Source: Kordiimonadales bacterium IMCC3096 (GTDB lineage Bacteria; Pseudomonadota; Alphaproteobacteria; Minwuiales; Minwuiaceae). From it: a stretch of DNA of 64,000 nt. This document shows positions 24,908-34,750 of the stretch, in pieces. The stretch is from NCBI GenBank assembly GCA_016865035.1, contig CP018227.1:776001-840000 (forward strand), read 5' to 3'. The notes beneath the pieces were generated by a model. The model saw only the letters and a list, made by a program, of their open reading frames with translations. It did no database searches and was not told the origin of the DNA. Position 1 is the first letter of the stretch. Each line of letters starts with the position of its first letter. Made by a program: the position numbers and the translations under genes.

Positions 24908-25318
24908 TCAAGCAGGCTCAGCCTGTGGCAGTGCCATGTCGCCGCGCGGCTCGAAGCAGATGCGGACGGGCATGCCGATGGTGACATCCTCCGGCGCGCA
25001 GTTGATCACGTTCATCATCAGCCGTGGCCCCTCCGCCAGATCGATCAGGGCGATGACATAGGGCGCGCGCTCCGCGAAGGCCGGACCGGGTGCGCGGTGG
25101 TTGATGGTGAAGGTGAAGACCGTTCCCTGCCCCGAAGCCTCCGAAGCTTCGCCGGTCTCGCCACCGCAGGCGGTACAGCTCTTCTGCGGCGGAAACTGGA
25201 CGGCATCGCAGGCGGTGCAGCGCGCGAAGGTCAGTCGGCCATCGGTACAGGCATCCCAGAAGGCCTGGCTCTCGGCGTTGGGGGTCGGCAATGGCAGGAC
25301 GTTTGCGGGATCGGTCAT
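24908..25318 (-). CDS. Zn-ribbon/OB-fold protein (DUF35)
   Basis: A 136-residue DUF35 protein. The N-terminal rubredoxin-like zinc ribbon has CTACDAVQFPPQKSCTACG (two CxxC knuckles) and a C-terminal OB fold follows. Such proteins form complexes with thiolase-like enzymes and present the acyl-CoA. Its ATG overlaps the stop of the thiolase gene by 4 bases (ATGA), which strongly supports a two-subunit complex. Confidence 0.88.
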   Translation of the reverse strand: MTDPANVLPLPTPNAESQAFWDACTDGRLTFARCTACDAVQFPPQKSCTACGGETGEASEASGQGTVFTFTINHRAPGPAFAERAPYVIALIDLAEGPRLMMNVINCAPEDVTIGMPVRICFEPRGDMALPQAEPA

Positions 25319-26469
25319 GACTGCCGCTCCAGAATCAGGGAAACATGGGCGGACAGGACTCCGCCGTCACCGTGGACGAAGGCACGGGCCGCATCCGGCA
25401 CCTGACGTTCGTCCGCCTCACCGCGCAACTGGCGCACGGCCTCCACCACATGGAACGCGCCGCCCGCCGCGCCGGAGTGGCCGAAGCTCAGCAGCCCGCC
25501 GTGGGTGTTGCAGGGCAGGCTGCCGCCCAGGTCCAGTGCACCGTCGGAAACCGCCTCCCCCACCGCCCCCTTGGGGAAGAAGCCGATGGACTCCAGTTCG
25601 ATCGCCAGCGTGATGGTGAAACTGTCGTAGATCTCCGCCACGTCGATGTCGGCGGTGGTCATTCCGGCCTCGGCAAAGGCATCGCGGGCGCTGAACTTGC
25701 AGCCGAAGGACTGCATATCCCGGGGGGCGGAGATCAGATGCTCATGCGTGTTCTTCTGCCCCGCACCGACAATGCGCACCTCCGCGCCGTGCCCGGTGGG
25801 CGCGGCAGAGACCAGGATACCGGCAGCACCATCGGAAATCAGGGCGCAATCGAACAGGCGCAGCGGGTCGGCGATGACCCGGCTGCCCATCACGTCGTCA
25901 TGGCTCAGCGGCTTGCGCATCTGGGCGTCCGGGTGACGGCGGGCATGGTTGCGGGTAGTCACGGCAATGTGCGCCAGGTCCGATGCGGTAAGCCCGGTGT
26001 CATGCATGTAGCGCCGCGCCACCATGGCATAGGCGGCGGGAATGGTGATGCCATAGGGCACCTCGAACTGTCCGTGGCCGAACTGGGCCAGCGCCGCAAC
26101 GGCGGCACCCGGTGCCATGCCGCTCAACCGGTTGTCCCCGGTCAGGCAGAGCACATGGCGGCACATGCCGCTTTCCACCAGCGCCTTTGCGGTCATGACC
26201 TGCAGGCCGCCGGTGGCCCCGCCCGCGCTGACACAAGCGGAATAGGCGGGCTGGATGCCCAGGTACTCCGCCACGACGGAGGCCAGCATCGGATGCGGTT
26301 CGGTGAAGGAGTAGGCGCAGAGCAACCCGTCCACATCGCCGAGATCCAGGCCCGCGTCGGCAACCGCGCCGCGCGCGACCTGCGCATGCAGGCCAAGGCA
26401 GGTGGATCCCTCCAGCTTGCCGCAGGCCGTATTGGCCACGCCCGTGATTACAGCCTTTGAAGTACCCAT
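25315..26469 (-). CDS. thiolase-family protein (SCP-x/Ltp2-like)
   Basis: A 384-residue thiolase-fold enzyme. ACVSAGGATGGLQ carries the probable nucleophile-position Cys, NTHGGLLSFGHSGAAGG the catalytic-region His, and the C-terminal HGDGG lacks the second thiolase cysteine. Loss of that residue is typical of SCP-x and steroid-side-chain aldolase (Ltp2) relatives, which work with a DUF35 partner, as here. It may therefore be a retro-aldolase or non-decarboxylating C-C lyase on a CoA ester rather than a classical thiolase. Confidence 0.82.
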   Translation of the reverse strand: MGTSKAVITGVANTACGKLEGSTCLGLHAQVARGAVADAGLDLGDVDGLLCAYSFTEPHPMLASVVAEYLGIQPAYSACVSAGGATGGLQVMTAKALVESGMCRHVLCLTGDNRLSGMAPGAAVAALAQFGHGQFEVPYGITIPAAYAMVARRYMHDTGLTASDLAHIAVTTRNHARRHPDAQMRKPLSHDDVMGSRVIADPLRLFDCALISDGAAGILVSAAPTGHGAEVRIVGAGQKNTHEHLISAPRDMQSFGCKFSARDAFAEAGMTTADIDVAEIYDSFTITLAIELESIGFFPKGAVGEAVSDGALDLGGSLPCNTHGGLLSFGHSGAAGGAFHVVEAVRQLRGEADERQVPDAARAFVHGDGGVLSAHVSLILERQS

Positions 26470-26527
26470 CTGCTCCCCCCGACATCAGGTTTCTCAGCCT
26501 ACATGGTGGGACACTTGGCTTGAAACC

Positions 26528-26556
26528 CTTGAACCGCATGGCAGGGCCGACTAGAT
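26528..26556 (+). promoter_or_regulatory. possible heat-shock (RpoH) promoter upstream of the ABC/htpG operon
   Basis: CTTGAA (26528-26533), a 17-base spacer and CTAGAT (26551-26556) resemble the alphaproteobacterial RpoH pattern CTTGAA-N17-CTATAT with one mismatch in the -10. It would start transcription near 26563, about 125 bases before the first gene. The last gene, htpG, is a classic heat-shock gene, which makes this plausible but not proven. Confidence 0.4.
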
Positions 26557-26688
26557 CATGGCGCGGCCAGAGGCGAGAAACGATCCGGCCTCCTCCGGCC
26601 ACAATAGTCAGATGCGCAAGCACCATGTCCAGGGTCCATGATCCGGGCGCGGGAGCACAGAACGCATGATCAGGGGAGCAGTGCCGAC

Positions 26689-27630
26689 GTGACAGCCATG
26701 CTGGAAGTTCGGAATCTGGTGAAGCAGTTCGGTCACTTCACCGCCGTGGACGGGATAAGTTTCGAGGTGCAGCGCGGCGAAGTGCTGGGCTTCCTCGGCC
26801 CCAATGGTGCGGGCAAGTCCACCACCATGAAGATGATCACGGGCTTTCTGGGTCCCACCGCCGGAACGGTCACGGTCAACCAGGTCGATGCGCTGGCCAA
26901 TCCGATCATGGCCAAGACCCGCATCGGTTACCTACCGGAGGGCGCACCGGCCTATCCCGACATGACCCCTGCGGCATTCCTGAACTTCATCGCCAGCATC
27001 CGGGGCCTGGGCGCGAAACAGCGCCGTGAGCGGATTGCGGCGATCACGGAGCGGATCGAGCTCCGCCGGGTGATGGAACAGCCGATCGAGACCCTGTCGA
27101 AGGGCTTCAAGCGACGCGTCGGCCTGGCGCAGGCGCTGCTGCATGACCCCGATATCCTGATCCTTGACGAACCGACGGATGGTCTGGACCCGAACCAGAA
27201 GTTCCAGGTGCGCGATCTGATCCGCGAACTGGCACCGGAGAAGGCCATCATCATCTCGACCCATATCCTGGAGGAAGTCTCCGCCGTCTGCAGCCGGGCC
27301 ATGATCATCGCCCACGGCAGGGTCGTCGCCGATGGCACGCCGGGAGAACTGATGGGCCGGTCGCGGTTCCACAACGCGGTCGTGCTGGAACTGAAGGGCG
27401 ATGGTCAGCCGGATTTCGAGACCATTCGCGCCGACCTGATCCGGGTGCCGGGCGTTGCCAGTGTCGAACCGGACGGCGACCGCCGTGTCGTGGTCTTTCC
27501 GAAGGACAGCGCCACCGTCACGGATGGCGTCTCGCAACTGGCCAGTGCACGTGGCTGGCAGATCGGAGCCTTCTATGTCGATCCGGGCCGGATGGACGAA
27601 GTCTTCCGCACCATCACGCAGGGGAACTGA
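26689..27630 (+). CDS. ABC transporter ATPase, GldA-like
   Basis: A 313-residue ABC-2-type ATPase: Walker A GPNGAGKST, Q-loop region YLPEGAPAYPDM, signature LSKGFKRRVGLAQALL, Walker B ILDEPTDGLDPNQ and switch STHILEEV, then an extra C-terminal domain. It is close to the GldA/CcmA/DrrA group that drives export or membrane-protein extrusion. GTG at 26689 is chosen because AGGGGA ends 11 bases upstream; ATG 26698 is the alternative. It begins a five-gene operon with gaps of only 3-10 bases. Confidence 0.88.
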   Translation: MTAMLEVRNLVKQFGHFTAVDGISFEVQRGEVLGFLGPNGAGKSTTMKMITGFLGPTAGTVTVNQVDALANPIMAKTRIGYLPEGAPAYPDMTPAAFLNFIASIRGLGAKQRRERIAAITERIELRRVMEQPIETLSKGFKRRVGLAQALLHDPDILILDEPTDGLDPNQKFQVRDLIRELAPEKAIIISTHILEEVSAVCSRAMIIAHGRVVADGTPGELMGRSRFHNAVVLELKGDGQPDFETIRADLIRVPGVASVEPDGDRRVVVFPKDSATVTDGVSQLASARGWQIGAFYVDPGRMDEVFRTITQGN

Positions 27631-27633
27631 GCC

Positions 27634-28371
27634 ATGGGAGCCATGACAACCGTTTTCCGCCGCGAGCTGGCCGGATATTTCGCCACCCCCGTCGCGTGGG
27701 TGTTCATCGTCATCTTCCTGCTGACCACGGCGGCCTTTGCCTTCTATCTCGGCAACTTCTTCGAGCGTGGGCAGGCCGACCTGCTCAGCTTCTTCACCTA
27801 TCTGCCGTGGCTGTACCTGTTCCTGATCCCCGCAATCGGCATGCGGCTGTGGTCGGAGGAACGCAAGACCGGCACCATCGAACTGCTGCTGACCCTGCCG
27901 ATCTCGGTGCCCGCTGCGGTACTGGGCAAGTTCCTGGCGGCCTGGGCCTTCGTCGGCATCGCACTGTCGCTGACTTTCCCGTTCTGGCTGACCGTCAGCT
28001 ATCTCGGCGATCCCGACCATGGCGTCATCATCGCCAGCTATATCGGTGCGCTGCTGATGGCCGGCGGATACCTGGCCATCACGTCGTGCCTGTCGGCCCT
28101 GACCCAGAACCAGGTGATCGCCTTCGTCGTCTCCACGGTCGTCTGCTTCCTGTTCACGGTCTCCGGCACCCCCATCGTGCTGGACTTCGTCAGTGGCTGG
28201 GCACCGGAAATGCTGGTGGACCAGATCGCGGGCTTCAGCTTCATCACCCATTTCCAGTCGATCATCGGCGGCGTCATCGACCTGCGTGACCTGGTGTTCT
28301 TCGCCAGCCTGATCGGGGTCTGGCTGTTCGCCAACATGATCATCATCGAATACAAGAAATTCGCGGGCTGA
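27634..28371 (+). CDS. ABC-2-type permease, GldF-like
   Basis: A 245-residue membrane protein with six hydrophobic spans. The N-terminus FRRELAGYFATPVAWVFIVIFLL and the cytoplasmic EERKTGTIELLLTLPIS segment are hallmarks of GldF/NosY-like ABC-2 permeases. It follows the ATPase by 3 bases and pairs with it; the exported substrate is unknown. In Bacteroidetes the homologous GldA-GldF-GldG set is needed for gliding, but no other gliding gene is visible here. Confidence 0.88.
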   Translation: MGAMTTVFRRELAGYFATPVAWVFIVIFLLTTAAFAFYLGNFFERGQADLLSFFTYLPWLYLFLIPAIGMRLWSEERKTGTIELLLTLPISVPAAVLGKFLAAWAFVGIALSLTFPFWLTVSYLGDPDHGVIIASYIGALLMAGGYLAITSCLSALTQNQVIAFVVSTVVCFLFTVSGTPIVLDFVSGWAPEMLVDQIAGFSFITHFQSIIGGVIDLRDLVFFASLIGVWLFANMIIIEYKKFAG

Positions 28372-28381
28372 GGACGGAACC

Positions 28382-30283
28382 ATGAATCAGCTCAACAGAT
28401 ACAAGTTCATCGCCTTCAGTGGTATCGGTCTGCTGGCCATCCTGTTCTTCGCCGTCAACATCGTGGCGGATGACAGCCTGGAGAACAGCCGCCTCGACCT
28501 GACCGAGAACGGCCTCTACACCCTCTCCGACGGCACCCGCAACGTGCTCTCGGGGCTGGAGGAAGACGTTACCCTGCAGCTCTACTATTCGGCGTCCCTT
28601 GCCGGGTCGGTACCGGAGATCCGCAACCACGCGGACCGGGTCATGAGCATGCTGGAGGAATTCCGCTCCATCTCGGGCGGGCGCATCCGCCTGGAGCTGA
28701 TCGACCCGGAACCCTTCTCGGAAGACGAGGACGCGGCTGTCGATGCAGGCCTGAGTGGGGTGCCGCTGGGTGCAGGTGGCGACACCTTCTATTTCGGCCT
28801 GGTCGGGCAGAACACGACCGACGATCAGGAAACCATCCCCTTCTTCCAGCCGGAGCGGGGCCGTTTCCTGGAATATGACCTGACCCGGATGGTCTATGGC
28901 CTGTCCAACCCTGATCTGCCGAAGCTGATGGTCATCACGACCTTCCCGCTGGATTTCGGACCGGGCGGGGTGCAGGCGGCAATGCGGGGCGAGAGCCGCC
29001 CCTACGCGATCACGGAGCCGCTGCGCGGATTCTTCGACGTCGATATTCCGCTGCGCCAGTGGGAGGAGATTCCCCCTGACACCGACGTCATCATGCTGGC
29101 CCACGCCCGTAACCTGACGGAACGCCAGCGCTATGCCATCGACCAGTTCATCCTGGGCGGCGGCAAGGCCCTGATCCTTGCCGACCCGTTTTCCGAGGTC
29201 GGTGTCCGCCTGCCCTCCCCCGGCGGTGCGCCGGACCCGATGGACCCGCATTCCAGCCTGTTGCCCGAACTGCTCGGCCCCTGGGGCGTGCAGGTGGAGC
29301 CGGAGACACTGGTTCTGGACCGCACGCTGGCGACGCGTGTGAACATCGGTCGCGGACGGCGGCAACTGATCGACTATGTGGCCTGGATCCAGGCGGCCGG
29401 GCCTGCGCTGAATGCCGACGACCCGGTGACCGCCGACCTCAGCCTGCCGCTGCTGCTGCCCTCCGTCGGGCACATCGAGATCGCGGAGGACAGCCCGCTG
29501 AAGGCCGTGCCCCTGATCACCACCACCCGCGAGGCCATGCGCATCCCGGCGTCGAAGCTGCGCTTCCGCCCCGATCCGCAGGGGCTGCTGGCGGACTTCC
29601 AGTCGGAGGACCGCCAGTTCGTCATCGCTGCCCGCCTGAGCGGCATCGTGAACTCGACCTTCGATGCAGCGCCTGAAGGTGTCGATGCACCGCATATCGA
29701 ACGTTCCGCCGAACCGGTCAGCATGATCCTGGTGACGGACGCGGACTTCATCGAGGATACCTACTGGGCCAGTCGCCAGGCGGTCTTCGGGCAGGAGGTG
29801 ACGCAGCAGACCTCGGGCAATGCCAACTTCCTGATCAACGCCATCGACAATCTCGCCGGTTCCAGCGACCTGATCGGGCTGCGCAGCCGGGGCGAAGGGG
29901 ATCGTCCCTTCACCGTGATCACCGAACTGCGTCGCGCTGCGGAGCAGCAGTACCTGCAGCAGGAACAGGAACTGGAAGCCCGTCTGAAGGAAACCGAGAA
30001 GAAGCTTGCCGAACTGCAGAACCGCGCCGGTGAAGGCGGTGGCCAGTTGCTCTCCACCGAGGAGGCCAAGGCCATTGAATCGTTCCAGAAGGACGTGCTG
30101 GACACCCGCCGCGAGCTGCGCGCCGTGCAGCTCAACCTGCGGCGGGATATCGAGGAACTGCAGGACCGCATCAAGGTGATCACCATTGGCGCCATGCCTG
30201 CACTGGTGTTCGTCATCGCCATGATACTGGCGCTCTGGCGACGCGGTCGGCGGCGTCGCAGCCAGATGCTGAAGGAGGGCTGA
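28382..30283 (+). CDS. GldG-like ABC transporter auxiliary protein
   Basis: A 633-residue protein with one N-terminal membrane span (about 12-30), then the ENSRLDLTENGLYTLSDGTRNVL start typical of the GldG family and a large periplasmic domain containing LILADPFSEVG. A charged coiled coil (about 520-600, heptad-rich QQEQELEARLKETEKKL) and a C-terminal span followed by RRGRRRRS complete it. The topology puts the big domain outside, anchored at both ends. It probably gates or delivers substrate to the ABC pair, but the role is inferred. Confidence 0.82.
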   Translation: MNQLNRYKFIAFSGIGLLAILFFAVNIVADDSLENSRLDLTENGLYTLSDGTRNVLSGLEEDVTLQLYYSASLAGSVPEIRNHADRVMSMLEEFRSISGGRIRLELIDPEPFSEDEDAAVDAGLSGVPLGAGGDTFYFGLVGQNTTDDQETIPFFQPERGRFLEYDLTRMVYGLSNPDLPKLMVITTFPLDFGPGGVQAAMRGESRPYAITEPLRGFFDVDIPLRQWEEIPPDTDVIMLAHARNLTERQRYAIDQFILGGGKALILADPFSEVGVRLPSPGGAPDPMDPHSSLLPELLGPWGVQVEPETLVLDRTLATRVNIGRGRRQLIDYVAWIQAAGPALNADDPVTADLSLPLLLPSVGHIEIAEDSPLKAVPLITTTREAMRIPASKLRFRPDPQGLLADFQSEDRQFVIAARLSGIVNSTFDAAPEGVDAPHIERSAEPVSMILVTDADFIEDTYWASRQAVFGQEVTQQTSGNANFLINAIDNLAGSSDLIGLRSRGEGDRPFTVITELRRAAEQQYLQQEQELEARLKETEKKLAELQNRAGEGGGQLLSTEEAKAIESFQKDVLDTRRELRAVQLNLRRDIEELQDRIKVITIGAMPALVFVIAMILALWRRGRRRRSQMLKEG

Positions 30284-30286
30284 GCC

Positions 30287-31408
30287 ATGCGCCGCACCAC
30301 CTGGATCGTCCTTCTGTTGCTGACCATTGCCAGCGTCGTCGCCGCAGCCTTCGTGCTGGACCGCAAGGCCGACCGGCTCGCGGCCCGCGAATACGGCCAG
30401 GCGCTGTTCCCGGAGCTTGCCGAGCAGATCAACGCCGTCGCCAGGCTGGCGTTCGTGACACCAAAGGGCGCCTGGAGCCTGAGCCGTGACGCAGACGGTC
30501 ACTGGCATCACGATGCGCGCAACGGCTATCCGGCCGACGCGGACGAGGTGAAGCGGCTGGTGGTTGCCCTGTCGCGCGCCACCATCATCGCGCCGAAGAC
30601 CAGCGACCCCGAACTGTTTGACCGGCTGGGCCTGGAAGAACCGCAGCCGCTGCCGGAGGGGGAAGTCGACAGCAGCGCCAGGACCATCAAGGTCGTTGCC
30701 AGCGATGCCGGCGGCAGCCAACTGGCCGGGGTCATCCTCGGCAAGACCAAGCAGCTTGGCGATGCCACCGAGCCGGCGAAAGTCTATGTCCGCCGCGCCG
30801 ACGAGAACGAGACCTGGCTGGCGGAGAGCTTCTTCAACCTGAAACCTGCCCCCACCGACTGGCTGGACCGGGAACTGTTCAAGGTCACCAAGGATGTCGT
30901 GACCGACATCCGCGTCGCCCGGCCCGACATGCCGGTGCTGGAACTGAACCGCAGCGAGTACGGCTACTTCCACGTGACCGACCTGCCGGAAGGCCTGCAG
31001 GAACAGGAAATCCGCCTGACGGCAACAGGCCGGGCGCTGGAGTTCCTGAAACCGCGCGACGTGGCCCCAGAGGCCGAGGTGGACTTCACCGGCGCGACAC
31101 GGGCGACCTTCACCACGCAGAGCGGCTGGATCGTCACGGTGGACATCCTCGATGCCGGGCGGAAGGTGGACAATACGGATGCCTTCTGGCTGCGTTTCGA
31201 CGTTCAGTTCGATGCCAGCCTGATCGAGCAGCTTCCGGTCGGTATCGATGGCAAGGAACCGGATCCGATCGTTGCGGAGGATGAGGAAGTCCGCGCACGT
31301 GCGGCGGCGGCGAAGGTTGACGGCTGGGCCTACCTGTTCCCGTCCTTCACCGCCGAGAACTTCACGCCGACGCTGGAAACCCTGACCAAACCCAAGGAGG
31401 ACTCCTGA
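30287..31408 (+). CDS. DUF4340 membrane-anchored protein
   Basis: A 373-residue protein with one N-terminal hydrophobic span (WIVLLLLTIASVVAAAFVL) and a periplasmic body in which two similar DUF4340-type folds are likely (FVTPKGAWSLSRDADGHWHHDARNGYPADADEV). The gene is 3 bases after the GldG-like gene. DUF4340 proteins routinely accompany GldG-type genes in proteobacteria, where the complex is uncharacterised. No enzyme motif is visible. Confidence 0.78.
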   Translation: MRRTTWIVLLLLTIASVVAAAFVLDRKADRLAAREYGQALFPELAEQINAVARLAFVTPKGAWSLSRDADGHWHHDARNGYPADADEVKRLVVALSRATIIAPKTSDPELFDRLGLEEPQPLPEGEVDSSARTIKVVASDAGGSQLAGVILGKTKQLGDATEPAKVYVRRADENETWLAESFFNLKPAPTDWLDRELFKVTKDVVTDIRVARPDMPVLELNRSEYGYFHVTDLPEGLQEQEIRLTATGRALEFLKPRDVAPEAEVDFTGATRATFTTQSGWIVTVDILDAGRKVDNTDAFWLRFDVQFDASLIEQLPVGIDGKEPDPIVAEDEEVRARAAAAKVDGWAYLFPSFTAENFTPTLETLTKPKEDS

Positions 31409-31411
31409 CCC

Positions 31412-33310
31412 ATGACTGCCCAGAGCTATCAGTTCCAGGCAGAGGTTGCGAAGCTTCTGCACATCGTCACCCACTCGCTCTATTCGGAGAAGGAGATCTT
31501 CCTCAGGGAACTGATCTCCAATGCCTCCGATGCCTGTGAGCGGCTGCGCTATCTGGCCATTGCCGAACCGGCGCTGACCGAAGGGGACACCGACTTCCGC
31601 ATCGGCGTGCATGTCGTCAAGGACAAGGGCACGCTGTCGATCACCGACAATGGCGTCGGCATGGATCGCGACGACATGATCGAGAACCTGGGCACCATCG
31701 CGCGCTCCGGCTCGACCGCTTTCATGGACCAGCTTGCCGAAGGTCAGGGCAAGGATGGCAAGGGACCGGACCTGTCGGTCATCGGACAGTTCGGCGTCGG
31801 CTTCTATTCCGCCTTCATGGTGGCGGAGGAAGTCTCGGTCACCAGTCGCCGGGCCGGTGCGGATACCGCCTTCACCTGGGTTTCCGGCGGGACGGGCGAA
31901 TACACGATCGAGGAATCGGCGCGTGACGGTCGCGGCACCACCGTGGAACTGAAGGTCCGCGACGAGCAGAAGGAATTCCTGGAGACCTGGCGGCTGCGCC
32001 AGATCATCGAGACCTATTCCGATCACATCACCTGGCCGATCACCATCACCGCCAGCGACGATGAGGCGGACGCGGAGAACGAGCCCGTCAACAAGGCATC
32101 CGCCCTCTGGACCCGCCCCAGGTCGGAGATCACCGAACAGCAGTACACCGAATTCTATCGCCATGTCGGCGGTGCCTTCGACGAGCCCTGGACCGTTCTG
32201 CACAGCCGGATCGAGGGCAAGGTCGAGTACACGCTGTTGCTGTTCGTGCCGACCGAGAAGCCTTTCGACCTGTTCCATCCGGACCGCAAGCACCGGGTGA
32301 AGCTGTACGTGAAGCGGGTCTTCATCACCGATGAGGCGGAGGGGCTGGCCCCCAGCTATCTGCGGTTCCTGCGCGGTATCGTGGATTCCGAAGACCTGCC
32401 CCTGAACGTCAGCCGCGAGATGCTGCAGAACGAGCCGATGCTGCGTCACATGCGCGGCCAGATCGTCAAGCGCGTGCTGGGCGAACTGGAGAAGAAGGCG
32501 GAGAAGGACCCGGAGGGCTTCACCACCTTCTGGCGCAACTTCGGCGCGGTGCTGAAGGAAGGCATCTACGAGGATCACGAGGTCGGCCCCCGTATCCTGA
32601 AACTGGCACGCTTCGACAGCACCGCGGGCGACGAGCTGACCAGTCTCAGCGGCTATGTCGAGCGCATGAAGCCGGGACAGGAAGCGATCTATTACATCAC
32701 CGCCGACGATCTGGCCGCCGCACGCCGCAGCCCGCATCTGGAGGGTTTCCGGAAGAAGGGTATCGAGGTGTTGCTGCTGACCGATGCGGTCGATGATTTC
32801 TGGCTGCAGGCGCATGGCGAGTTCGATGGCAAGCAGCTGAAGTCCGTCACCCGTGGCGGTGCCGACCTGTCAAAGATCGAGGACGCGGAATCAACGGACG
32901 ACGATCAGGACAAGCCGGAAGCCCCGAAGGAGGGGGACATGGCCACCCTGATCGCGGCGTTCAGGGAAACGCTGGGCGACGCGGTGAAGGATGTCCGCAC
33001 CTCCGACCGGCTGGCCGAAAGCCCGGTCTGCCTGGTGGCCGACGACAACGACATGGACATGCGGCTGGAGCGGATGCTGAAGGCACACAAGCAGGTGGAC
33101 GCCGCATCGAAAAGGGTGCTGGAGATCAATCCGCGCCACGCGCTGGTGATCCGCCTGGTTGATCGCATGCGCGAGGACGGCCTGAATGCGGACATCGAGG
33201 AGGCGGCGCGGCTGCTGTTCGACCAGGCCCGCATCATCGAGGGCGAACCGCTGGACGATCCGGCGGCCTTCAGCAGGCGCATGGCGAACTTCATGTCCCG
33301 GGCGATCTGA
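31412..33310 (+). CDS. htpG: Hsp90-family chaperone HtpG
   Basis: A dimeric ATP-dependent chaperone of 632 residues. The GHKL ATPase domain shows LRELISNASDACERLRY, DNGVGMDRDDMIENLGTIA and GQFGVGFYSAFMV. The middle domain has LPLNVSREMLQ with the catalytic arginine, and a C-terminal dimerisation domain follows. AAGGAGG lies in the end of the preceding gene and only 3 bases separate the genes. HtpG is usually a single-gene unit, so its attachment to an ABC-export operon is unusual and may mean shared stress control or help in folding the exporter's cargo. Confidence 0.96.
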   Translation: MTAQSYQFQAEVAKLLHIVTHSLYSEKEIFLRELISNASDACERLRYLAIAEPALTEGDTDFRIGVHVVKDKGTLSITDNGVGMDRDDMIENLGTIARSGSTAFMDQLAEGQGKDGKGPDLSVIGQFGVGFYSAFMVAEEVSVTSRRAGADTAFTWVSGGTGEYTIEESARDGRGTTVELKVRDEQKEFLETWRLRQIIETYSDHITWPITITASDDEADAENEPVNKASALWTRPRSEITEQQYTEFYRHVGGAFDEPWTVLHSRIEGKVEYTLLLFVPTEKPFDLFHPDRKHRVKLYVKRVFITDEAEGLAPSYLRFLRGIVDSEDLPLNVSREMLQNEPMLRHMRGQIVKRVLGELEKKAEKDPEGFTTFWRNFGAVLKEGIYEDHEVGPRILKLARFDSTAGDELTSLSGYVERMKPGQEAIYYITADDLAAARRSPHLEGFRKKGIEVLLLTDAVDDFWLQAHGEFDGKQLKSVTRGGADLSKIEDAESTDDDQDKPEAPKEGDMATLIAAFRETLGDAVKDVRTSDRLAESPVCLVADDNDMDMRLERMLKAHKQVDAASKRVLEINPRHALVIRLVDRMREDGLNADIEEAARLLFDQARIIEGEPLDDPAAFSRRMANFMSRAI

Positions 33311-33335
33311 TCCGCGGACGGTCCCGGAAACAGTT

Positions 33336-33365
33336 CGGCCCTCCCCCTGGCCAGGGGGAGGGCCG
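33336..33365. terminator. long GC-rich palindrome between convergent genes
   Basis: Arms of 15 bp (CGGCCCTCCCCCTGG and its exact complement) meet with no spacer, so a hairpin would have a small loop around TGGCCA. It lies 26 bases after the htpG stop and 36 before the convergent oxoamine synthase gene's end. No T-run follows. It may be a bidirectional terminator or one copy of a dispersed palindromic repeat. Confidence 0.6.
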
Positions 33366-33400
33366 CGCAGTTTCAGGCGCTGATCGGCGCGAAGTCCGGA

Positions 33401-34750
33401 TCAGGCAACCTTGGCGACCGAACCGATGATCTTCTGCTGGCCGGACAGGCGGTAGGGTTCGAAACGCGGCTCCGCCGCATCCAGGGACGCGCGCATCCGG
33501 CTGACCAGTGCATCGATCTCTTCCTTCGAGTGATGCGCCATGACCTGCAGGCGGAACCGGGCACCGTTGCGGGCAACAGCCGGATATTCCACCAGGTTGA
33601 CGATCGCGCCGCGGGCCTGCAGCTCCTGCGCCGCGATGCGCGCCAGTCCTTCGGCACCGATATGCACCGGCACGATGGCGGACGGGTCACCCGTCGCATC
33701 GAACTTGGCCCGTTTCAGTTGCTCCCGCAGATACAGCGTATTGTCCATCAGGGACTTGCGCAGCCTGCGGCCTTCCTCGGAGCGCACGATCTCGAAGGCC
33801 TTCAGCACCACGGCCGACTGCATCGGCGACAGGGCGTTGGAGAAGGTCTGCGGCGCGCTGTAGTACTTCAGGTATTCCTTCACCGACCTGGAACCGGCAA
33901 CGACGAAGCCACCGTTGGAGGCGAAGGTCTTGGAGAAGCTGCCGACGATGATGTCCACATCATCCAGCATGTTCTGCAGACCAAGCTGACCGCGACCATC
34001 CTCGCCCAGGCAACCCAGGTCATGGGCGGCATCGACCAGCAGCGTGGCGTTGTATTCGCGGCAAAGCTCCTGCAGTTCCCGGAGCTTCGGCGTGTCGGAG
34101 TCCATGGAGAACAGGCTTTCCGTCACCACCAGGATGCCGTTCACCGTATCACGGTCACGAATGCGCTTCAGCTTCCGCTTCACGCCGTCCAGGTTCAGAT
34201 GGCCGTGCAGGTGAATGTTGCGGGTTGCCGCGGCGGCACCCTGCTGCATGCAGGAATGGGCCAGAACGTCCATGACGACATGGTCATCGGGGCGGACCAG
34301 CCCCTGGATCGCACCGAAACCGGCGGACCAGCCGGTCGGGAACAGGACCGTGTGATCGCGGCCCGTGAAATCGGAGATCTCCTGCTCCAGACGCAGGGAC
34401 CCGGTAGTGTTGCCAAGCAGCGCGGCGGAACCGGCGCTGTGCGCGCCATAGCGCTCCACGGCCTCGATGGCGGCGGCCTTCACTTCCGGGTGGGACGCCA
34501 GGCTGAGATAGTCCTGGGACGCGAAGTTGACACCTTCCAGCGCATGGCCGGTATCGTCCAGCGCGCTGCATGACGACGTCGGCGCGGTGGCGGTGGAACG
34601 GGAATAGGGCCAGAGCGCGTTGCGGCGACGCAGGTTCTGCCATTCGAAGAACGGATCAACCCGGCCAAGCAGGTTTGCGCCCTTGATCTCGCGGTAGTCA
34701 CGCAGGCTGCCCGTCAGGGCTTCGGGTGGGATTGCATTCTCGCGGTCCAT
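33401..34750 (-). CDS. alpha-oxoamine synthase-family PLP enzyme
   Basis: A 449-residue fold-type I PLP enzyme of the family that condenses an amino acid with an acyl-CoA (KBL, BioF, HemA, serine palmitoyltransferase). Marks are NFASQDYLSLASHPEV (74-90), the PLP-stacking region around residue 165, DAAHDLG (Asp240, His243) and the Schiff-base Lys274 in GSFSKTFASNGG. The usual DEAH reads DAAH. A roughly 70-residue N-terminal extension is longer than in KBL or BioF. It has no bio, hem or sphingolipid neighbour, so the substrate is open. The ATG at 34750 has GAGGAG 8 bases upstream. Confidence 0.83.
   Translation of the reverse strand: MDRENAIPPEALTGSLRDYREIKGANLLGRVDPFFEWQNLRRRNALWPYSRSTATAPTSSCSALDDTGHALEGVNFASQDYLSLASHPEVKAAAIEAVERYGAHSAGSAALLGNTTGSLRLEQEISDFTGRDHTVLFPTGWSAGFGAIQGLVRPDDHVVMDVLAHSCMQQGAAAATRNIHLHGHLNLDGVKRKLKRIRDRDTVNGILVVTESLFSMDSDTPKLRELQELCREYNATLLVDAAHDLGCLGEDGRGQLGLQNMLDDVDIIVGSFSKTFASNGGFVVAGSRSVKEYLKYYSAPQTFSNALSPMQSAVVLKAFEIVRSEEGRRLRKSLMDNTLYLREQLKRAKFDATGDPSAIVPVHIGAEGLARIAAQELQARGAIVNLVEYPAVARNGARFRLQVMAHHSKEEIDALVSRMRASLDAAEPRFEPYRLSGQQKIIGSVAKVA

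Follow-up and report, generated by a model that had tools for sequence, protein, structure and literature searches.

The role of Gld-like ABC transporters outside the gliding Bacteroidota is not settled, according to a section of PMC7440613. A window of 64,000 nucleotides from Kordiimonadales bacterium IMCC3096 (contig CP018227.1, positions 776,001 to 840,000; coordinates below are those of the window) holds the genes for such a transporter directly followed by htpG, and raises the question of what the transporter does and why the gene for a cytosolic chaperone stands behind it. The ABC_transp_aux family that marks these transporters occurs in about half of the Alphaproteobacteria that we sampled, yet the transporter has been little studied.

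A probable five-gene operon built on a widespread core

The five genes that the initial annotation placed at 26689 to 33310, in the order ATPase, permease, GldG-like protein, DUF4340 protein and HtpG, were confirmed from the open reading frames (ORFs) of the plus strand. The features of the locus are as follows.

26517..26568, plus strand, candidate promoter block in a divergent intergenic region (conservation in three congeners)
26689..27630, plus strand, ABC ATPase, GldA/DrrA-like, 313 aa (PF00005, TIGR03522)
27634..28371, plus strand, ABC-2 permease, GldF-like, 245 aa (PF12679, TIGR03518)
28382..30283, plus strand, GldG-like protein, 633 aa (PF09822, PF23357, TIGR03521)
30287..31408, plus strand, DUF4340 protein, 373 aa (PF14238)
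31412..33310, plus strand, htpG, bacterial Hsp90, 632 aa (NF003555, PF00183)

The ORF caller began the ATPase at 26638, and 26689 was taken as the beginning of its conserved part. In the ORF list the genes are separated by 3, 10, 3 and 3 bases in order, and we infer that they are most likely transcribed as a single unit. The first four genes recur widely as a unit. Their order was kept in all 20 loci inspected, and the ABC_transp_aux/DUF4340 operons of other Pseudomonadota and of Nitrospirota share these genes and this arrangement as far as their contigs reveal it; the quartet here is an ordinary member of that kind. Genes in relatives were called with weight on homology, longest-ORF calling having been dropped because antisense ORFs misled it.

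A transporter related to, but distinct from, GldA-GldF-GldG

The ATPase matches ABC_tran (PF00005) with 105.2 bits, above the curated Pfam cut-off, and its translation contains what we take to be the Walker A, signature, Walker B and H-loop motifs. The permease matches ABC2_membrane_2 (PF12679) with 35.9 bits against a cut-off of 27.2, and the motifs and the two domain matches together identify an ABC-2 type transporter. Permease identity to 14 aligned relatives was 57 to 96%, and a sequence search of solved structures returned nothing informative for this protein beyond a weak match to CcmB (E 0.0047).

Could this be a true gliding-motility transporter acting with a type IX secretion system? 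The best NCBIfam matches of the first three proteins are GldA, GldF and GldG, three protein classes shared with the GldA-GldF-GldG system of Flavobacterium johnsoniae, and flavobacterial GldG has a membrane topology matching that of the GldG-like protein. The section of PMC7440613 that treats GldA, GldF and GldG regards them as probable parts of an ABC transporter with a role in gliding. All three scores here, however, fall far below the equivalog cut-offs: 287.1 bits against 402.6 for the ATPase (TIGR03522), 182.9 against 288.5 for the permease (TIGR03518) and 97.9 against 389.85 for the GldG-like protein (TIGR03521). Unlike in F. johnsoniae, genes for DUF4340 and HtpG accompany the transporter. 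Searches of this genome for GldM and SprA of the type IX system gave no match, a weak argument since the control genomes were equally silent. We regard a true GldAFG transporter as highly improbable. The label "Gld-type ABC" of the initial annotation holds as a statement of similarity and of a compact unit, and fails as an assignment to the GldA, GldF and GldG equivalogs.

The GldG-like and DUF4340 proteins

The GldG-like protein meets the gathering cut-offs of ABC_transp_aux (PF09822; 181.7 bits, cut-off 34.7) and DUF7088 (PF23357; 85.2 bits, cut-off 27.8). From the N terminus it is arranged as a membrane helix, DUF7088, the ABC_transp_aux/GIFT domain, long helices and a C-terminal membrane helix. 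Hydropathy places the membrane segments at residues 7-33 and 596-622, in agreement with the double anchoring proposed earlier, and the long helices predicted at 511-551 and 559-632 fit the proposed coiled coil (mean pLDDT of the model, 89.8). DUF7088 has a thioredoxin-like fold; a redox-active domain was ruled out because the protein has no Cys, and in 72 aligned sequences Cys occurs at most 5 times in any column.

Sequence searches gave no informative match and no relative among solved-structure sequences for the GldG-like protein, and Foldseek against the PDB found none for its model at E 0.001. VIA-align did find relatives with the GIFT fold, aligning to residues 176-505. The predicted fold resembles 8b6l_N (Z 19.1, 229 residues aligned, rmsd 3.2), a chain that we take to be OST48, the structure listing naming just the complex, and IFT52 (5fmr_C; Z 17.3, 220 residues aligned, rmsd 3.6), at 12 to 17% sequence identity in those alignments. 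At Pfam E 1e-3 the sequence matches ABC_transp_aux and DUF7088 alone and neither OST48/Wbp1 nor IFT52 families, and the likeness of fold to OST48/Wbp1 and IFT52 does not demonstrate a common function.

The DUF4340 protein (PF14238; 41.0 bits, gathering cut-off 25) has a single N-terminal membrane segment by hydropathy, at residues 3-28, and its beta-rich part is presumably extracytoplasmic. Its model has a mean pLDDT of 93.5. A sequence search of solved structures returned nothing informative, Foldseek against the PDB nothing at E 0.001, and VIA-align nothing above Z 4.3, which does not demonstrate a new fold. Gene fusions offer the hypothesis that it is a transporter subunit: in two loci from one family of genomes (L137 and L261) permease, DUF7088, ABC_transp_aux and DUF4340 are joined in a single ORF, and permease and GldG are fused in L260 (where the permease match is below its cut-off), L262 and L263.

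Linkage of htpG to the transporter

The fifth gene encodes HtpG proper, with 762.6 bits against NF003555 (equivalog cut-off 371, profile positions 1-614 of 614) and 414.7 bits against HSP90 (PF00183), over the curated cut-off. A PF00183 profile search of the whole genome gave this one match; as the sole Hsp90 match it is not a dedicated paralogue.

Among 240 sampled Alphaproteobacteria, 113 had the ABC_transp_aux family at E 0.001 (110 above the cut-off), and presence of the two genes was at best weakly associated across genomes (71/42/63/64, Fisher p 0.051), so that co-presence was dropped as evidence. Linkage is another matter: htpG follows the four-gene core in 12 of the 71 genomes with both genes, where a rough count predicts about 0.06. 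With the core kept in every locus inspected, this places the five-gene arrangement beyond chance. The linkage also appeared in 7 of 80 named loci not chosen for htpG, all titled Alphaproteobacteria or Ferrovibrio, and of the 50 named loci whose titles are not alphaproteobacterial, not one showed htpG within 10 kb downstream, as far as their contigs reach. The initial annotation had asked whether the linkage is conserved across Alphaproteobacteria. It recurs beyond this genome, but was seen in one clade of Alphaproteobacteria alone and is often missing there: all 19 linked rows of the GldG tree lie inside a single clade of 42, intermixed with unlinked rows, 13 of which were scored. The linkage changes 8 times on this tree, as against a mean of 17.3 and a minimum of 13 when shuffled. 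No title among the literature matches listed concerned this operon type or its linkage to htpG.

One explanation is that HtpG folds or protects a transporter subunit or a protein cargo, the operon matching the supply of chaperone and client. The spacing would suit such a role, since DUF4340 and htpG are separated by 30 bases or fewer in 11 of 18 listed loci (overlaps counted, start codons uncertain). So would the rank of htpG as the commonest same-strand downstream family, at 18 of 101 loci, 10 of which, along with the window, were chosen for linkage; glycyl-tRNA synthetase alpha follows with 6 of 101. Against it, HtpG is cytosolic whereas the GldG-like and DUF4340 proteins are presumably mostly extracytoplasmic, most genomes with both genes keep them apart (59 of 71), and 42 of the 113 genomes with ABC_transp_aux gave no htpG match. 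Dedicated chaperoning thus appears quite unlikely, and the earlier idea of a folded or partly folded protein cargo found no direct support.

The same distribution can be read as a neutral neighborhood, in which htpG landed once behind an unrelated transporter and the fusion was tolerated although the products have no common function. Confinement to one clade that includes unlinked members, the prevalence of unlinked genomes and the nature of HtpG as a single-copy housekeeping protein all agree with this, and promoters in relatives provide the evidence that weighs against it.

Heat-shock-like promoters in relatives

The motifs published for RpoH1 (CTTGAA-N15-16-CCTATAT) and RpoH2 (CTTGCC-N15-16-CCTATCT) were taken from a passage of PMC4843759 that cites Barnett et al. 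2012. The counts that follow come from related sequences and so lack independence; the two data sets also share at least two genomes (L061/G182 and L111/G091). Scored with a matrix, an RpoH-like promoter of its own precedes htpG in 21 of 27 unlinked genomes (20 of 27 leave-one-out) and in 2 of 19 linked ones, a difference with a Fisher p of 1.3e-5; by the published consensus alone the contrast was weak (10/27 versus 2/19, p 0.086). The linked genomes G042 and G169 retain such a promoter at htpG. Since linked htpG rarely has its own promoter, the arrangement is hard to call inert.

Sites were also found upstream of the ATPase gene. The matrix derived from htpG promoters matched 19 of 109 alphaproteobacterial operons and 6 of 171 other operon heads, while column-shuffled matrices matched 0.82 on average and at most 4 in 100 shuffles. 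Allowing no more than one mismatch, the published consensus was present in 8 of the 19 linked operons and 11 of the 90 unlinked ones, against 27 of 2,000 random windows and 5 of the 171 other heads (linked p 2e-6, unlinked p 0.005, each against the heads). Linked and unlinked operons differed by consensus (p 0.005) and weakly by matrix (p 0.096), and 11 of the 19 linked operons have no consensus site. Patterns shaped after viewing the ATPase promoters gave 10/19, 17/90 and 0/162 for linked operons, unlinked operons and heads, respectively; since they were post hoc, the claim was rested on the htpG-derived matrix and the published consensus. Sigma-70 promoters of Alphaproteobacteria are partly similar to those of RpoH.

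That sites precede unlinked transporters too, by consensus and by matrix (13/90 versus 6/171 heads), argues against a neutral neighborhood, which we consider rather unlikely. The RpoH regulon of Alphaproteobacteria offers a comparison: htpG and part of the transporter operons of the class bear sites fitting the published consensus; no report of the transporter as a regulon member was seen in the portions of the literature consulted.

This genome's own operon has no clear RpoH-like site. The candidate block, about 52 bases almost identical in three congeners, has as its best element CTTGAA-N17-CTAGAT, which begins 161 bases before the ATPase gene. The best RpoH-like score upstream of the ATPase gene, 10.8, falls short of 11.3, the 95% threshold of the null, and the best site has two mismatches to the published consensus, as good as or worse than 208 of 2,000 random windows. 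The pattern CCTTGAA-N15-19-YTANNT, modelled on this operon's site, has two matches in the 4.29-Mb genome, one at 26527-26556 and one ahead of a gene for a zinc-ribbon protein, from which an ORF for an ftsE-like ATPase (named by eye) runs divergently; its reversed control gave 11 matches, so that the rarity of the element is not evidence of function. The stricter CTTGNN-N15-17-YTATNT is absent from this operon, with 27 matches genome-wide against 70 for its reversed control, and a generic sigma-70 scan of 26400-33500 found 0 sites (shuffles, 1.0). Nor was an RpoH-like site found within 350 bases upstream of htpG. A promoter of its own for htpG, which the initial annotation had named as grounds for doubting the link, was thus seen in neither sigma-70-like nor RpoH-like form. 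Envelope stress, as suggested earlier, or heat stress is favored by the RpoH-like promoters of relatives and gains no clear site from this operon.

A proposed stress-coregulated envelope machine

We lean toward the explanation that the locus encodes a stress-coregulated envelope ABC machine to which the housekeeping HtpG has been added. Gene order, protein families, fusions, the recurrence of linkage and promoter statistics in relatives were observed directly, and from them we infer RpoH control, mechanism and role. The products of the first four genes would form one inner-membrane machine, with the ATPase on the cytoplasmic side of the ABC-2 permease. The GldG-like subunit, anchored at both ends, would carry a large extracytoplasmic GIFT domain upon its helical stalk, and the beta-rich DUF4340 subunit would have a single anchor. 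The architecture of this machine suggests that the stalk may transmit ATP-driven movement of the permease to the extracytoplasmic domains, which would act on an envelope component. The sole htpG probably came behind the transporter genes in an ancestor of one alphaproteobacterial lineage. Because most linked relatives examined have no detectable RpoH-like htpG promoter, linked htpG would rely on the transporter promoter, which some relatives have in RpoH-like form. Against this, an ORF on the opposite strand lies between the DUF4340 gene and htpG in the linked genome G126. What ties HtpG to the transporter may be mainly common control under protein-folding stress, which would imply a role for the transporter in envelope quality control or repair.

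A bolder version, in our judgment rather doubtful, is that the ABC_transp_aux/DUF4340 transporter is an unrecognized heat-shock-controlled envelope quality-control machine of Pseudomonadota that is paired functionally with Hsp90/HtpG. HtpG might then handle stressed proteins on the cytosolic side, and the ATPase-powered GldG-like/DUF4340 assembly might remodel or extract envelope components opposite.

To our knowledge, few partners of bacterial Hsp90 are known, which makes a conserved operon partner a useful lead. A concrete and cheap hypothesis, that of an envelope function under heat stress, follows from the linkage together with the promoters and the fusions, and the heat-shock-like promoter in some relatives is a first testable lead to the role of this transporter.

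The five-gene operon

The initial annotation had the anatomy of the operon right: its five genes lie at the positions given there, on the forward strand, with gaps of 3, 10, 3, and 3 bases between them, and each assignment is backed by a Pfam match exceeding its cut-off:

26689-27630 (+), ATPase of the Gld-like transporter
27634-28371 (+), permease
28382-30283 (+), GldG-like protein
30287-31408 (+), DUF4340 protein
31412-33310 (+), htpG

The fifth gene encodes a full-length HtpG, the single Hsp90 match across the whole 4.29-Mb genome. A mechanical listing also gave long opposite-strand open reading frames (ORFs), the longest of 1490 residues at 28343-32815, which we regard as antisense artefacts arising from GC-rich coding sequence. 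Across the intergenic region from the operon lies a divergent gene pair (24908-26469, -), thiolase-like and ChsH2-type OB-fold.

Two membrane segments span residues 7-33 and 596-622 of the GldG-like protein, and a single one spans residues 3-28 of the DUF4340 protein. Structure prediction was confident for both proteins (mean pLDDT 89.8 and 93.5, respectively). Residues 176-505 of the GldG-like model matched an oligosaccharyltransferase chain, which we take to be OST48 (Z 19.1, 229 aligned, rmsd 3.2), as well as the IFT52 GIFT domain (Z 17.3, 220 aligned, rmsd 3.6), while residues 45-178 matched the thioredoxin-like N-terminal domain of AhpF (Z 9.6, 110 aligned, rmsd 2.7). Because the protein contains no cysteine, a structural role for the thioredoxin-like part seems likelier than a redox role. 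Structure comparison of the DUF4340 model returned nothing above Z 4.3. The predicted GIFT-like domain (28907-29896) is about as close to OST48/Wbp1 of the eukaryotic oligosaccharyltransferase as to IFT52; our literature search found no report naming OST48 and IFT52 together.

Conservation of the transporter core

The order ATPase, permease, GldG-like protein, DUF4340 protein was kept in all 20 alphaproteobacterial loci inspected, 11 picked as linked (htpG behind the transporter operon) and 9 as unlinked. When named genomes were scanned with 15 aligned permeases, at least 577 matches were confirmed, and the best 80 of them were retained; by record title these belong to Alphaproteobacteria, Gammaproteobacteria, Nitrospirota, and others. 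The ATPase was present in 78 of these best 80 and DUF4340 in 69; in the remaining 11 loci the sequence extends no more than 2.6 kb beyond the permease. Two genomes of a single family (L137 and L261) have one ORF of 1152 or 1155 residues that joins permease, DUF7088, ABC_transp_aux (the latter two being the domains of the GldG-like protein), and DUF4340; permease and GldG parts are fused in three further genomes (L262, L263, and L260, the last with a permease match below cut-off). Fusion and fixed gene order together point to DUF4340 as a likely transporter subunit. An essential DUF4340 domain has been reported within a protein of Verrucomicrobium spinosum (PMC12283558). Five Nitrospirota loci (L096, L097, L101, L102, and L103) share a gene family immediately ahead of the Gld-like operon and in the same orientation, the L097 member being a BatD-like protein.

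Recurrence of the htpG linkage

The initial annotation was right that the htpG linkage deserved attention. Among 240 genomes of the class Alphaproteobacteria, 113 encoded ABC_transp_aux, 134 HtpG, and 71 both; 12 of these 71 had htpG on the same strand no further than 6 kb downstream, about 0.06 being expected by a rough count. In two of the 12 an ORF intervenes before htpG (370 residues on the opposite strand in G126, 317 on the same strand in G067). Seven of the best 80 named loci were linked, 57 of the 80 having at least 5 kb of downstream sequence; the record titles place all seven in Alphaproteobacteria (Ferrovibrio or metagenome assemblies). Other recurrent same-strand downstream neighbours were rarer, the next being glycyl-tRNA synthetase alpha (6 of 101 loci).

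In a quick IQ-TREE analysis of 119 GldG rows, midpoint rooted for drawing, all 19 linked rows fell within one clade of 42, together with 13 scored as unlinked and 10 unscored. Linkage required 8 changes, gains and losses not being separable on this tree, against a mean of 17.3 and a minimum of 13 for shuffled labels.

Promoters of htpG and of the transporter operon

A strict RpoH-like (heat-shock sigma factor) pattern occurred within 350 bases upstream of 19 of 27 unlinked htpG genes, hand-picked rather than randomly drawn from the 122 class genomes with unlinked htpG (shuffles, 0.2), and of 2 of 19 linked ones. A matrix built from those 19 unlinked sites matched 21 of 27 unlinked genes (20 in leave-one-out) versus 2 of 19 linked genes (Fisher, 1.3e-5), although the promoter p-values assume independence among related sequences and so overstate. 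The two linked exceptions, G042 and G169, belong to the same family. With the published consensus the figures were 10 of 27 versus 2 of 19 (p 0.086).

Upstream of the ATPase gene, alphaproteobacterial operons gave matrix matches in 6 of 19 linked and 13 of 90 unlinked cases, at least two genomes occurring in both data sets (L061/G182 and L111/G091); 15 of these 19 matches lay 64-119 bases upstream. One hundred column-shuffled matrices gave a mean of 0.82 and a maximum of 4 matches, against 19 of 109 observed. Among controls, the matrix matched 3 of 45 loci that were not on the alphaproteobacterial list and 6 of 171 other operon heads, whose starts came from a mechanical ORF caller; 3 of the 6 were in the YccA/Bax1-I-like family. 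Sinorhizobium meliloti RpoH motifs, as given in PMC4843759, occurred with at most one mismatch at 8 of 19 linked and 11 of 90 unlinked ATPase genes, compared with 27 of 2000 random windows, 1 of 45 loci from outside the class, and 5 of 171 operon heads, of which 3 were YccA-like. Within the linked clade, the published consensus was present at 8 of 19 linked versus 1 of 12 unlinked rows. Genes of a YccA/Bax1-I-like family (L042:8269-9030 and L104:5281-6051) neighbour the operon in several Alphaproteobacteria, some with a strong RpoH-like site.

No consensus RpoH site was found at the window's operon, where the candidate element scored 10.8 by the matrix (95% threshold, 11.3). Three congeners share, almost without change, a stretch of about 52 bases of the divergent intergenic region, in which CCTTGAA is followed downstream by CTAGAT. 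The pattern CCTTGAA-N15-19-YTANNT, shaped on this site, has 2 matches in the genome, and its rarity proves nothing, since the reversed control pattern has 11. In this genome dnaK has an RpoH-like site scoring 14.1 (about the 99% threshold), whereas by the matrix groES (4.3) and clpB (4.0) have none; from these scores, the local RpoH-like motif may differ from the matrix. Upstream of groES (L252) stands an inverted repeat of the CIRCE type, TTAGCACTC-N9-GAGTGCTAA, so HrcA-type control of this gene may apply. A claim of heat control for the transporter operon would rest on relatives, since the window's own operon has no consensus site and the local motif is possibly different.

In the literature searched, we found no description of htpG linkage recurring in one clade, of htpG lacking a promoter of its own in that clade, of an RpoH-like transporter promoter in part of the class, or of gene fusions that tie DUF4340 to the transporter. 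In itself the four-gene core is unremarkable within a kind of transporter that is widespread though little studied, and the simplest account of its linkage to htpG would be one old gain followed by repeated loss.
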